The position numbers were made by a program, and so were the translations under genes. The notes under the pieces are model-generated. The model searched no databases. It saw only the letters and a list, made by a program, of their open reading frames with translations, and had not been told where the DNA came from. Below, piece by piece: positions 8,440 through 37,426 of a stretch of 41,007 nt of DNA (the first letter of the stretch is position 1; every line of letters starts with the position of its first letter). Source of the stretch: Pirellulales bacterium (GTDB taxonomy: Bacteria > Planctomycetota > Planctomycetia > Pirellulales > Lacipirellulaceae); NCBI GenBank assembly GCA_022448265.1, contig JAKVCC010000017.1, positions 1 through 41,007 on the forward strand. Reading direction: 5' to 3'.

Positions 8440-8841
8440 TTGGCTGAGAATACGGCTGTCTACGAAGGTTTGTTCATCCTAGATGCCAATAAATTGGCAC
8501 GAGATCGCGATGGCTTGCCTAGCGCAGTGAATGGGCTGATCGAAGGGGCTGGCGGGCAGATTGAGGTCAGCCGCCTTTGGGAAGAGCGTCGCCTCGCCTA
8601 CCAGATCCATGGCCAGCGCAAAGGCGCCTACTGGATTACCTACTTCCGATTGCCGACCGACAAGCTTGCCGATTTGACCCGGCAATTCGAGCTTCACGAC
8701 GGCATCTTGCGACAGTTGTTCGTGCGGTTGCCTGCGGCACTGGTCGATCCGGTTCTGGAGCATGCAAAGGAAGGAAACGCTCCCGCTGCCGAGGGTACTC
8801 CCCAAAAAGCAGGGCCGGCGACCGTCGAGGCGACTACCTAA
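8440..8841 (+). CDS. rpsF: Ribosomal protein bS6 with TTG start
   Basis: Small-subunit protein bS6, about 133 residues: NTAVYEGLFILDANK at the start, LWEERRLAYQIHGQRKGAYW in the middle, and an Ala/Pro-rich tail. The frame is open back to an ATG at 8347, but those 31 residues are not S6-like. A TTG at 8440 is preceded by GGAG at 8429-8432 and places the start exactly where bS6 proteins begin (xAENTAVYEGLF), so TTG is very likely the real start codon. The stop codon lies inside a 17-bp tandem duplication. ssb follows as in most bacteria. Confidence 0.92.
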   Translation: MAENTAVYEGLFILDANKLARDRDGLPSAVNGLIEGAGGQIEVSRLWEERRLAYQIHGQRKGAYWITYFRLPTDKLADLTRQFELHDGILRQLFVRLPAALVDPVLEHAKEGNAPAAEGTPQKAGPATVEATT

Positions 8842-8872
8842 TCTAATTGTTGGGCTAATCTAATTGTTGGGC
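8838..8872 (+). repeat. 17-bp tandem duplication spanning the rpsF stop
   Basis: TAATCTAATTGTTGGGC occurs twice head to tail (8839-8855 and 8856-8872). The first TAA is the rpsF stop codon, so the duplication lies at the gene boundary and leaves the protein unchanged. Confidence 0.9.
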
Positions 8873-11963: not shown

Positions 11964-12663
11964 CACGGATTTCGTGCGTGGTCGAATAGTGTAGGGGCTG
12001 TTTCATGCAAGGGTCTGGCCTTCCCCTGCTTTTAGTACCAGCCCAAGTGAGAGAATCAGGGTTAAGGGTTCTGCCGTTCTATTGGAGTGCGGCCGTAGGC
12101 TCCAGCGGAAGAAGAACAGCGGGTGGTGAACGCCGCGGGGTCTGATAATCCAATGAACCTTGAGGTTGAAGTGATTGTAGCCAAGTCGCCAGCGGTTAAT
12201 GACCGAGCGCGCCTCAGTTAAGCTAAGGAATAACTCGCATTCAAGAACTCATTGCGGATTTTTCTTGGAGTTGGCATTTTGGAAGCCAAAAAGTGTGTTG
12301 AGCAAAATTCGGATCGCCGATAGCCCACACGACTCCCTCAGGTTCTCACGGGGTTAGCTTTCTCGCTGGGCCAGCTTTCTCATGGGGCCATGCTGGCACG
12401 GCTAGCGGTGTGTTTGCTTTGTCGTGCGGCAGAAGAACTGATGTGGAATCGTGAGCGATGAAGGGTTGTTTTCCGAGTTCGGCCCAGTCGGATGGCTTCT
12501 GGATGGTGCTTGTCAACAGGTTGCCAGCATCAAATTCATCTTGCCGCTTTTAGGCACAGTCGTTATTTCTTTGTCGCTCGTTTTGCGGTGGAATTGCGCG
12601 ATTCCAATGTGCGACTCCGCGGCAGGCCCTGCTTTTCACACAAATTTTGCCCCTTTACTGCCA
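11964..12663. other. Long spacer dnaB-bamA with a coding-like scrap
   Basis: About 700 bp without an intact gene if bamA starts at 12664. A small GCACG/CGTGC hairpin (about 11966-11980) follows the dnaB stop without a T-run. From 12099 to 12227 one plus-strand frame reads APAEEEQRVVNAAGSDN then PMNLEVEVIVAKSPAVNDR before a stop. This looks protein-like, and its only ATG (12153) gives just a short peptide. It may be a gene remnant. The bamA promoter should lie in the second half. Confidence 0.45.
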
Positions 12664-29067: not shown

Positions 29068-29106
29068 TTACGAGTCGGGAATTACGAGTCGGGAATTACG
29101 AGCGGG
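29068..29106 (-). repeat. 14-bp tandem repeat at the cysQ 5' leader
   Basis: TTACGAGTCGGGAA occurs twice exactly and then a third partial copy (TTACGAGCGGG), starting three bases outside the cysQ start codon. On the transcript this is a run of CTCGTAATTCCCGA units in the ribosome-binding region, and no Shine-Dalgarno is seen. Confidence 0.9.
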
Positions 29107-29577: not shown

Positions 29578-30234
29578 CTAGGGCTGCTCACGAAGCCGGT
29601 TGGCGACGGCAAACGTGATCTGCTCGAGTTCTCTCGCTAAATCGACACCCACTTTGCTAATGCCCTCGGGTACATTCAATGTCACCGGCGCAAAATTGAC
29701 GATCCCACCAATGCCTGCAGCCACGAGCTGGTCGGTTACTCCCTGGGCATCCGCTGGGGGTACTGCGACCAACCCGAGCTCAATTCGCTCCTGGGCCAAG
29801 ATTTCGTTCAAGCGACTCATCGCGTGTATTTCGACACCTTCGATTTTGGTGCCAGTTTTTTCCTGGTCGATGTCAAACGCCGCAATTAAACGAAAACCCT
29901 GCCGAGAAAAACCTCGGTAGCCAAGTAGCGCACGGCCCAGGTTGCCAACCCCCACCAGCGCCACCCGCCACTCGCGATCTGTCCCCAAGATCTTACGAAT
30001 TGCCTGCACCAGATCGTCGCAACGGTAGCCGATACCCGGCTGGCCAAAATGGCCAAAATGGGCCAGATCCTTGCGAACCTGGGCGTCGGTAAAGCCTAGC
30101 CGTCGACCGAGTTGACTGCTGCTGGTGGTCTGCTCACCATCGCTGATCAGATGCTGCAATTCCCGCAAATACAACGTCAACCGATTCACGACCGCCAAGG
30201 GCACGTGCGTTGGGTCAGGTCGGGACGAACTCAT
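29578..30234 (-). CDS. rex: Redox-sensing transcriptional repressor Rex
   Basis: A 218-residue Rex, a dimeric repressor that senses the NADH/NAD+ ratio and controls respiratory and fermentative genes. The N-terminal winged helix ends in the signature TDAQVRKDLAHFGHFGQPGIGY (DNA-recognition part, about residues 47-68). A Rossmann domain follows with VALVGVGNLGRALLGY (NAD loop), IAAFDIDQEKTGTKIEG, and the ligand-region VPPADAQGVTDQL and GIGGIVNFAPVTLNVP. Length is normal. No target operon lies directly downstream, where the next gene is the tRNA. I did not find a TTGTGAA-type Rex operator nearby. Confidence 0.94.
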   Translation of the reverse strand: MSSSRPDPTHVPLAVVNRLTLYLRELQHLISDGEQTTSSSQLGRRLGFTDAQVRKDLAHFGHFGQPGIGYRCDDLVQAIRKILGTDREWRVALVGVGNLGRALLGYRGFSRQGFRLIAAFDIDQEKTGTKIEGVEIHAMSRLNEILAQERIELGLVAVPPADAQGVTDQLVAAGIGGIVNFAPVTLNVPEGISKVGVDLARELEQITFAVANRLREQP

Positions 30235-30676
30235 GCGAGGATCAGCAGTCCAGGAGGGGAGATCGGAAAGCGGCGGCGCAGGGCAGCTGTCCGCACTTTA
30301 TCAGGTATCTCTCTGCCGCAGCAAGACGGAGCCGATTGCTATGTCTGCTAAGAAGGCTGCCTAAGCGGAGTGTTGCCCGTCGCCGGAGGTCCACCTAAGG
30401 CCTCTTGCCAATACGGCGGCGGACCGACGCAAAATTCGATTTTACCCGCAGTACCGGCCCTTTAGCTCCAATCCCTAGCAGGCTTGTGGGTACGGCAAAA
30501 TGCAACAGCCGGATCGTATCAATTGGGCATAGCTGGTCGTCTGAAACCTGTGGAAAAAATGCGTTATCTAGCTAATAAGGGCACCTTGTGCGGGACGAAT
30601 AGTAGCTTAGATGAACACCCTCCCATTTTAACTAAGCTATTCGTTTTCCTAATTGGAGCGAACAAGGAGAAGAGCA
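30235..30676. other. Divergent promoter region rex / YTV protein
   Basis: A 442-bp space between divergently transcribed rex and the YTV gene. The last 100 bp before the YTV start are AT-rich and presumably carry its promoter. Frames on the plus strand here are antisense shadows of rex or have no protein-like features. Confidence 0.5.
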
Positions 30677-32113
30677 ATGAGAGCAAAACCCGCATTGCAG
30701 GCTCTCGCCGTCTTGGCCTTAACAATGCTGCCGTCTATGGCATGGGCCGGATACTTTGGAGTTGCACGGTACAATGGGTGCAATTCCTCTTGCCGCCCGC
30801 GGCAGTGTCACACCGTGATGAAAACTGTCCGCTCTGTGGAATGGGAGCGTCAGTGCGTGCAGCGCTGCCGTACGGTTTATGACCGTGTTTGCGAAGATCA
30901 GGTCATCAACGTAACTCGCTATGTTCGCGAGCAGCGCCAGAAGGAAGTTTCTTACACGGTTTGCCGGCCCGTTTGGGAAACCAAGCAGCGGACCTACACC
31001 GTCAGCAAACCCGTATGGGAAACCAAGACCCGCGATGTTTGCTACACCGTGCATCGCCCGGTCTGGGAAACCAAGCAGCGGACCTACACCGTCAGCAAGC
31101 CTGTATGGGAAACCAAGACCCGCGATGTTTGCTATACCGTGCATCGCCCGGTCTGGGAAACCAAACAGCGGACCTACACCGTCTCCAAGCCTGTCTGGGA
31201 AACCCGCCAGCGCACCTACACGGTCAATAAGCCCGTATGGGAAACTCGCACGCGAGAAGTTCCCTACACGGCTTATAAGGCAGTTTGGGAAACCAAGCAG
31301 CGCACTTATACCGTGTGTCGCCCCGTGTGGGAGACTCAGACGCGGGAAGCAACTTATTACGTTCGCAAAGCGGTCCCGTATACCAAGACCATCCAAGTTC
31401 ATGGCGGTCATTGGGAAACTGAGTCTTACCAGGTCCCAGGCCGCACCTACACCCGCCGCGTCCGCCAGCCGGGCACTTGGCAATGGGATCCGTGTCGCTG
31501 CAAATGCGTGTATTGCCCCGGGCCGGTCTGCAAGGTGTGTTGCCAGGGTCCACCGCGCACGTGCTGCAAGCGTCATTGGGTTCCGGAATGCCACACCAAG
31601 GAGATCTGCTGTACAAAGTACGTTTGCGAGCCTCGCACCCGTACGTGCTGCTACAAGGTGCGCCGCATGGTTCCTGAGACCAAGACGTGCTGCTACAAGG
31701 TGTGCCGCATGGTTCCTTGCCAGCACACCCGCACGTGCTGCTACAAGGTGTGCCGTATGGTTCCTGAGACCAAGACGTGCTGCTACAAGGTGTGCCGCAT
31801 GGTTCCTGAGACCAAGACGTGCTGCTACAAAGTGTGCCGCATGGTCCCCAAGCAGTGCACCAAGACCTGTTGCTACAAGGTGTGCCGCATGGTTCCCGAG
31901 ACCAAGACGTGCTGCTACAAAGTGTGCCGCATGGTTTCTGAACAGCGAACCAAGACTGTATGCTACACGGTTTGCACTCCCGTATGCGAGCAGAAGACCA
32001 TCCAAGTTTACAGGTGTGTGCCGCGGCAAGTGCCGTACACCGTCACACGCTGCGTGCCTCGCGTCTATTGCAAGCAGGTTCCGGTATGCGTTTGCTGCCC
32101 GTGCTGCCGCTAA
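30677..32113 (+). CDS. Secreted cysteine-rich YTV-repeat protein (planctomycete cell surface)
   Basis: About 478 residues from the ATG at 30677, which has GGAG nine bases upstream. A signal peptide (MRAKPALQALAVLALTMLPS..., cleavage near AWA-GYF) indicates export. Residues about 98-221 hold nine VWET repeats alternating with YTV motifs (PVWETKQRTYTVSK). A Cys-rich bridge (CRCKCVYCPGPVCKVCC) follows. Then come seven CCYKV repeats (TCCYKVCRMVPETK) at about 323-425, and a tail ending VCVCCPCCR. Such YTV proteins are known from Rhodopirellula-type planctomycetes and are thought to be disulfide-cross-linked surface or cell-wall components. That role is family-based inference, and the exact structure cannot be read here. 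Monocistronic, followed by a strong hairpin. Confidence 0.88.
   Translation: MRAKPALQALAVLALTMLPSMAWAGYFGVARYNGCNSSCRPRQCHTVMKTVRSVEWERQCVQRCRTVYDRVCEDQVINVTRYVREQRQKEVSYTVCRPVWETKQRTYTVSKPVWETKTRDVCYTVHRPVWETKQRTYTVSKPVWETKTRDVCYTVHRPVWETKQRTYTVSKPVWETRQRTYTVNKPVWETRTREVPYTAYKAVWETKQRTYTVCRPVWETQTREATYYVRKAVPYTKTIQVHGGHWETESYQVPGRTYTRRVRQPGTWQWDPCRCKCVYCPGPVCKVCCQGPPRTCCKRHWVPECHTKEICCTKYVCEPRTRTCCYKVRRMVPETKTCCYKVCRMVPCQHTRTCCYKVCRMVPETKTCCYKVCRMVPETKTCCYKVCRMVPKQCTKTCCYKVCRMVPETKTCCYKVCRMVSEQRTKTVCYTVCTPVCEQKTIQVYRCVPRQVPYTVTRCVPRVYCKQVPVCVCCPCCR
30968..31340 (+). repeat. VWET/YTV tandem repeat block, 90-bp higher-order unit
   Basis: The first two 90-bp units (30968-31057 and 31058-31147) are nearly identical at DNA level and each encodes PVWETKQRTYTVSK plus PVWETKTRDVCYTVHR. 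A third, partly diverged unit starts at 31148. Later copies have drifted (RQR, RTREVPYTAYK, QTREATYYV). Near identity of the first copies points to recent unequal recombination. Confidence 0.9.
31643..31953 (+). repeat. CCYKV 42-48 bp tandem repeats
   Basis: Seven consecutive units encode TCCYKVCRMVPETK (42 bp) or a two-residue longer variant (...VPCQHTR, ...VPKQCTK, ...VSEQRTK). Several 42-bp copies are almost identical, for example ACGTGCTGCTACAAGGTGTG at the unit start. This block is distinct from the VWET block in the same gene. Confidence 0.9.
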
Positions 32114-32223: not shown

Positions 32224-32256
32224 GCGGCCTGAATCACCCTCAGTGATTCAGGCCGC
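32224..32256 (+). terminator. Strong 13-bp hairpin between convergent YTV and CPBP genes
   Basis: GCGGCCTGAATCA and TGATTCAGGCCGC form a perfect 13-bp stem with a 7-nt loop, followed by CTTTAT on the plus strand. It lies about 110 bp after the YTV stop and about 50 bp beyond the CPBP stop on the other strand, so it can serve both directions. Confidence 0.75.
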
Positions 32257-37054: not shown

Positions 37055-37402
37055 ATGTCCGACACCACGTCCGATGTAGTCGTCCTTTACGATGCGGCCG
37101 ATAAGCTCAAGGAGGAAGGTAAGCTCGACGAAGCGGTCGAAAAGCTGGAAGCCGCATTGGCCCAGGATCAGCAGTATGCCCTGGCTCATTCGGCACTTGC
37201 TGTGATTCTGCAGCGGATGGGCAAGCACGAAGACGCCGTCAAACACGCCGCGCGCGTGTGCGAACTGGAACCAAACGAACCGTTCAGCTACACCGCTATG
37301 AGTGTCACGTACCAGCGCGCCTACGCAGGCACAAACAACATGGACTACATTAAGCTGGCCGAAGACGCCATGGAGCGGAGTCGCCAGCTGAGTCAGGGGT
37401 GA
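37055..37402 (+). CDS. Small tetratricopeptide-repeat protein
   Basis: About 115 residues, soluble, with no signal peptide. Helical pairs follow the TPR pattern: ADKLKEEGKLDEAVEKLEAAL (about 13-33), YALAHSALAVILQRMGKHEDAVKHAARVCELEP (about 38-70, a near-perfect TPR with W/L-G-Y/H-A-F-A-P-like positions) and PFSYTAMSVTYQRAY... (about 73 onward). It is a protein-interaction scaffold with unknown partner. AGGAG at 37041-37045 puts the start at MSDTTSD (37055), although the frame is open from 37019. Its stop lies inside a 19-bp tandem duplication. Convergent with the DUF3467 gene. Confidence 0.82.
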   Translation: MSDTTSDVVVLYDAADKLKEEGKLDEAVEKLEAALAQDQQYALAHSALAVILQRMGKHEDAVKHAARVCELEPNEPFSYTAMSVTYQRAYAGTNNMDYIKLAEDAMERSRQLSQG

Positions 37403-37426
37403 CCAGTTGAGTCAGGGGTGACCAGT
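37389..37426 (+). repeat. 19-bp tandem duplication spanning the TPR-gene stop
   Basis: TGAGTCAGGGGTGACCAGT is repeated exactly at 37389-37407 and 37408-37426. The TPR gene's stop TGA (37400-37402) lies in the first copy, so the second copy is untranslated. Confidence 0.92.

Follow-up and report, generated by a model that had tools for sequence, protein, structure and literature searches.

Planctomycete cells have little or no cross-linked peptidoglycan, and what keeps them intact has long been asked; in the literature, the chief candidates for a role in the planctomycete wall are YTV proteins. Passages of the relevant studies report that boiling in 10% SDS yields Gemmata obscuriglobus walls in which YTV proteins are major constituents (PMC5287468), that the two top-scoring wall proteins of Tuwongella immobilis are cysteine-rich YTV proteins (PMC8567305), and that a YTV protein of Planctopirus limnophila falls in a planctomycete-restricted group of essential genes (PMC10632474). 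Envelopes of the Pirella/Planctomyces group are described, in passages of further reports, as proline- and cysteine-rich, disulfide-stabilised and resistant to 10% SDS (PMC3035269; a protein envelope also in PMC2754498). Here we analyse a YTV gene lying in a 41,007-nucleotide stretch of Pirellulales DNA (the window), and compare it with its relatives.

A YTV-family gene and its surroundings

The open reading frame runs on the + strand from the ATG at 30677 to the stop at 32113 and encodes 478 aa, 56 of them cysteines. The protein matches PF07639 (YTV) in Pfam with an E value of 2e-76 and 252 bits over 9 stretches (curated cut-off 21 bits). This match adds the gene to an already known family, and its product is probably a cysteine-rich planctomycete wall protein, probably exported. 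The features of the locus are as follows.

29578–30234, - strand: Rex-type redox repressor gene (Put_DNA-bind_N and CoA_binding, Pfam), divergent neighbour
30677–30748, + strand: residues 1–24, putative Sec signal peptide (MRAK...AWA), hydrophobic sequence read by eye
30749–30805, + strand: residues 25–43, short N-terminal segment with 2 cysteines and no strand in the model
30806–31435, + strand: arm 1, residues 44–253, 8 cysteines (core parsing and model)
30967–31204, + strand: 90-bp (42+48) higher-order DNA repeat within arm 1 (Tandem Repeats Finder)
31100–31216, + strand: residues 142–180, break separating two arm-1 strands (AlphaFold2 model)
31436–31555, + strand: residues 254–293, cysteine-rich bridge, predicted beta tip of a hairpin (sequence and model)
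31556–32095, + strand: arm 2, residues 294–473, 36 cysteines (core parsing and mirror test)
31643–31941, + strand: 42/48-bp DNA repeat within arm 2 (Tandem Repeats Finder)
32096–32113, + strand: C-terminal CPCCR and stop (sequence)
32224–32256, + strand: 14-bp perfect hairpin, 110 bp past the YTV stop (folding against shuffles)

Much of a preliminary description of this gene holds. It had proposed a signal peptide, and by eye the N-terminus is hydrophobic and ends in AWA-G, as in a putative Sec signal; the AlphaFold2 model of the protein has a helix at residues 4–15. The nine VWET/YTV repeats with a 90-bp unit that it listed are found as nine VWET units and as a DNA repeat at 30967–31204 of 2.7 copies with 93% matches (score 413), and its dense cysteine bridge contains 7 cysteines in residues 254–293, with further cysteines directly after. 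Its attribution to YTV-type planctomycete surface proteins agrees with the Pfam match, with the presence of PF07639 in 296/297 genomes of class Planctomycetia that are at least 90% complete, and with the published SDS-resistant walls. It had further described a second, different repeat, which is correct as to the 42-bp unit (31643–31941, 6.8 copies, 83% matches, score 406) but not as to the difference: single PF07639 matches lie above the cut-off in both blocks, those within block 2 at 31694–31798, 31784–31888 and 31874–31996. By its profile matches, block 2 is a YTV repeat with other letters than block 1 (YKVCRMVPETK against YTVCKPVWETK). Both blocks mix 14-aa (42 bp) and 16-aa (48 bp) units, neither having a single period, and the 90-bp unit is 42+48. 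Proline is present in most units (KPVWET, MVPE). Other short tandem repeats in the window, of 14–19 bp and about two to three copies each, lie at 8838–8872, 12343–12390, 29068–29106 and 37384–37426.

In the draft genome of origin (3.64 Mb, 87 contigs, 97% complete) the 11 YTV matches fall within two open frames, the window gene and one of 443 aa on contig C23. The latter gene (L002, G000:C23:272952-274016) has only 13 cysteines in 427 aa and has 16-aa units in both halves; a further YTV type, in which both halves have 14-aa units, occurs in related genomes and has no match listed in the window's own genome. Matches to the window protein were found in 14/14 genomes of the genus set and 43/43 of the family set, counts that include paralogues. 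In a draw across the phylum PF07639 was present in 6/59 genomes, namely 4/4 of the class and 2/55 others, both weak, and it was found in 0/14 control genomes. A scan of named genomes gave at least 80 related loci, among the matches listed being loci of Bythopirellula polymerisocia, Adhaeretor mobilis, Lacipirellula limnantheis and Blastopirellula marina. One orthologue (L018 and L041, G004:C127) has its arm 2 split over two frames, through a frameshift or an assembly error.

The region 30235–30676 separates the YTV gene from the gene for the Rex-type NAD(H) repressor. Of the 80 related loci among the matches listed, 59 have a Rex-type gene upstream in divergent orientation, at a median start-to-start distance of 522 bp, and this shared arrangement supports orthology. 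Through this neighbour a disulfide-rich wall protein might be tied to redox sensing; a search with a Rex operator consensus gave three weak matches in the window, none of them between the two genes, and a promoter scan found no promoter. The downstream hairpin (32224–32256; 71 nt folded, -29 kcal/mol, z -5.1 against shuffles) may be a terminator, although its T run is short and a terminator pattern scan listed nothing there.

Unit lengths and copy number in the two arms

Y-T-V cores were placed by dynamic programming with spacings of 12–20 permitted. Of 104 unique proteins, one (L026) was not parsed and ten paralogues were left out, leaving 93 main-type proteins with 1,629 gaps, of which 1,222 are of 16 residues, 404 of 14, 3 of 12 and none of odd length, as would be expected if each unit is a beta strand whose facing must be kept. 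The spacing across the bridge, from last arm-1 core to first arm-2 core, is 99 residues in the window protein and 99 in 77/93 proteins. Counted outward from the bridge, arm 2 has its 14- and 16-residue units in the reverse of the order in arm 1. In the window protein, arm 1 has three degenerate 16-aa units followed by core spacings of 14, 16, 14, 16, 14, 14, 16, 14 and 16, and the YKV core spacings of arm 2 (14, 16, 14, 14, 16, 14 and 16) mirror them at 7/7 positions. The even-only spacing, the constant bridge and the mirror rule are demonstrated, as is membership of the family, at the level of sequence.

The mirror rule was scored in three sets. In the discovery set, three proteins with bridges of 75, 76 and 91 were left unscored and 51 of the 93 were informative, with 37 distinct patterns, 32 of them not strictly alternating; the register (last arm-1 gap dropped, adjusted for bridges of 115 and 85) was chosen after this set had been seen. 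Over the 32 irregular patterns the mirror order matched at 228/245 positions and the direct order at 184/245 (253/270 and 209/270 when alternating patterns are included). Shuffling within proteins 20,000 times never gave 228 (mean 148, maximum 174), and taking arm 2 from another protein gave a mean of 0.55 and a maximum of 0.72 against 0.93 observed. Shifting the register by one unit reduced agreement to 0.38–0.40, and by two units to about 0.70.

With the register frozen, five new proteins of a second set matched the mirror order at 58/67 positions and the direct order at 42 (maximum of 20,000 shuffles 52). These five came from 33 collected frames, limited to proteins with a bridge of 99, no masked residues and both unit lengths; some of the 33 were copies of discovery-set proteins, paralogues, wrong-strand frames or all-16 proteins. 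Allowing one skipped run of units post hoc gave a full match in all five. A third set, again at the frozen register, comprised 11 patterns of one family and gave 115/123 for the mirror order against 54 for the direct order (maximum of 20,000 shuffles 86). Its 30 loci were reduced by dropping 3 with too short an arm and 7 with similarity of at least 0.9 to earlier proteins, as checked against eight earlier loci, together with those having bridges other than 99 or masked residues; it is related to the first two sets and phylogenetically not independent of them. Swapping arm 2 between relatives in this set gave a mean of 0.859 and a maximum of 0.976 against 0.935 observed, and a two-unit shift 0.83–0.84. 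The swap is uninformative because relatives share patterns, so the third set can tell a mirrored order from a direct one but cannot distinguish between relatives. The mirror match is exact in L153 (15/15), L207 and L208 (19/19 each), L210 (16/16) and L216 (13/13). A further fetch of proteins for held-out tests yielded no informative protein. Among paralogues, those with 14-aa units had them in both halves in 5/5 tested, and those with 16-aa units in 3/3.

The numbers of units in the two arms also vary together. With partial proteins dropped, arm 1 has 6–24 units and arm 2 has 2–19 (Spearman 0.73, n=93 pairs, the P value ignoring relatedness); the numbers are equal in 48/93 proteins, within one in 73/93, and apart by at least two in 20/93, including the window protein. 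There the arms have 9 and 7 gaps, with one 30-aa (90-bp) unit fewer in arm 2, and this shortfall may be real or an assembly collapse. Short-read collapse of near-identical 90-bp units is likely. Ten of the parsed family genomes have at most 10 contigs. In eight of these the arms are within one unit of each other, and the remaining arms of 8 and 12 (in a single-contig genome) and 8 and 4 units indicate that unequal arms do exist in good assemblies. Across the genus arm 2 ranges from 2 to 10 units, a copy-number variation at species level.

The preliminary description had called the DNA repeats recently expanded and had taken near-identical copies to suggest copy-number variation between strains. 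For block 1 recent expansion is not supported: its exact unit order is old, being common to 12/30 family orthologues in four genera (two of the 12 with one extra 14-unit called beside the bridge). The first two 90-bp units of the window gene are 87% identical to each other; compared with five congeners, unit 1 is 78–79% and unit 2 71–83% identical. On these identities the 90-bp units look partially homogenised rather than freshly copied.

A predicted hairpin ribbon and competing readings

DNA duplication keeps unit order and therefore cannot alone produce a reversed order. Another cause is needed, and unit-to-unit antiparallel contact is the simple candidate. We consider it probable that block 1, bridge and block 2 together form one giant antiparallel beta-hairpin ribbon of an exported planctomycete wall protein. 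Arm 1 would run out, the cysteine-rich bridge would form a small beta tip that turns the chain, and arm 2 would return beside arm 1, placing the signal peptide and both termini at one end of the ribbon and the tip at the other. Each arm-1 unit would face one arm-2 unit, so that a two-residue change in length must be matched opposite, giving the mirrored 14/16 order. The rise of a strand is about 0.33 nm per residue; at that rise a straight ribbon with 180–210 residues per arm would be about 60–70 nm long.

The continuity of the ribbon and its register are predictions of structure models. AlphaFold2 modelled the window protein (47 sequences) at low confidence (pLDDT 64.3, pTM 0.22), with strands at residues 44–141, 181–253, 294–366 and 376–473 and four short tip strands in the bridge at 257–263, 267–271, 276–280 and 284–290. 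The Bythopirellula polymerisocia orthologue L062, with 9 gaps in each of its near-equal arms, gave pLDDT 61.7 and pTM 0.22 and strands at 44–159, 177–253, 294–370 and 388–503. Strand pairing was read from strand ends, not from a contact map, and all four strand-end pairs of L062 sum to i+j=547. In the window model the bridge side sums to 547 and the terminal side to 517. This 30-residue slip equals the shortfall of arm 2 of the window protein against 9-gap relatives; the break at residues 142–180 is likewise 30 residues longer than the opposite break. A mid-arm break had been expected to vanish in the equal-armed L062, yet it is still there, symmetric and 17 residues long on each side. The middle of both arms has pLDDT below 50.

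Covariation between the arms was compared with unit-shifted controls in 36 all-16 proteins and reached 1.90, 2.09 and 1.76 times the controls at registers 8, 10 and 12, and 1.40 and 1.57 times at registers 9 and 11, though register 13 is high as well (1.75 times). The peak is centred on register 10, the register of the model, and the signal is spread over the unit, with top positions from -3 to 11. AlphaFold2 and covariation are not independent lines, because both use the same sequences. In 41 mixed 14/16 proteins covariation showed no peak over registers 8–19 (2.0–3.1 times). Charge pairing singled out no register: register 10 is free of like-charge pairs, 12 has strong opposite pairs and 18 is equally good.

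The arms could instead pair antiparallel unit by unit while the units bend, giving a compact coil or solenoid and not a straight ribbon. The mirror rule requires only that units be adjacent, proline recurs from unit to unit (KPVWET, MVPE) and a pTM so low does not fix the overall shape, all of which would suit such a shape. We nevertheless regard it as unlikely, given that the longest strand assigned by DSSP in the models runs without a break for 116 residues and that covariation extends across the unit and is not confined to one spot.

The preliminary description had seen two roles in the two blocks, which would then be modules set end to end, first VWET/YTV as a binding rod and after it an anchor cross-linked by disulfides. 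The cysteines are indeed strongly unequal (8 in arm 1 against 36 in arm 2) and the consensus letters differ (VWET against MVPE). Against this, one HMM family covers both blocks, the same unit recurs in both with mirrored lengths, and the models form one hairpin; independent modules would moreover give no reason for a reversed 14/16 order or for correlated unit numbers. Two separate modules are on this evidence very improbable. Least credible of all is a mirror order without structural meaning, arising by chance from common ancestry or from alternation that is nearly regular: relatives do share patterns, as the swap control of the third set illustrates, and the direct order scores well in the discovery set because many patterns alternate or are near-palindromic, but the asymmetric patterns decide for the mirror (15/15 against 11/15, 16/16 against 4/16 and 13/13 against 5/13), the mirror totals were reached by no shuffle, and duplication would give a direct order, not a reversed one.

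The mirror rule lends the giant hairpin an architecture that can be tested, its register being specified residue by residue. An evolutionary puzzle comes with it, in that arrays on two sides of the gene stay matched though DNA duplication copies the direct order. No mention of a YTV fold or of a mirror rule was found in literature passages, titles and abstracts other than the main family paper (Mahajan 2020).

Cysteines, the wall and comparison with known systems

Disulfides across the ribbon were considered and rejected, as same-face cysteine pairs are few (4 in the window protein, 6 in L062). Since arm 2 has 36 cysteines and arm 1 has 8, most arm-2 cysteines would lack a partner across the ribbon; they would form bonds within arm 2, along its length, or with adjacent molecules, and such cross-links would make the SDS-resistant wall. 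The arms may differ in cross-linking, block 2 being far richer in cysteine. Cysteine–cysteine contacts were observed at 0.36, 0.12 and 0.30 times expectation at registers 8, 10 and 12, but the avoidance predicted at contacts is not specific, since unit-shifted controls were also low (0.14–0.58). No match to the penicillin-binding-protein (PBP) transpeptidase family was found in the window's own draft genome (10/14 in controls), and this family occurs in 5/43 family genomes; the own genome has two Mur-ligase-type matches and a VKOR-type disulfide-forming enzyme.

We lean towards a broader proposal, in which YTV wall proteins make up a new structural class of beta-ribbons, each a single hairpin with an estimated length of tens of nanometres. 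Mirrored units would hold the two strands in register, the arrays would have to change in compensating pairs, and the ribbons would form a cysteine-cross-linked woven wall in bacteria that mostly have no penicillin-binding transpeptidases.

Structure searches (Foldseek, VIA-align) returned only long-hairpin stems, with TM scores of at most about 0.15 and a best Z of 3.3, and a PDB sequence search gave one chance-level row, the LysM protein 4oit (E 0.065). Pore-forming toxin stems and phage tail proteins share with the predicted ribbon the long two-stranded antiparallel hairpin. There is no sequence relation, however, and the YTV arms are repetitive and 180–210 residues long, so that the likeness is one of shape only. 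The cysteine-rich outer-membrane complex of chlamydiae, another PVC phylum, is a disulfide-cross-linked protein envelope, for which we know of no YTV repeats. As far as the passages cited above describe them, the envelopes of the Pirella/Planctomyces group fit in composition, given 56 cysteines in 478 aa and proline in most units, although those envelopes are known from chemical analyses and the window protein from its sequence. The closest likeness is to the YTV-domain, cysteine-rich wall proteins of Planctomycetia (PF07639), with which the window protein has in common the family match, the class range, the richness in cysteine and the probable export. No tested feature sets it apart from that family, and its two-block architecture is kept in the YTV orthologues inspected, including that of Blastopirellula marina.
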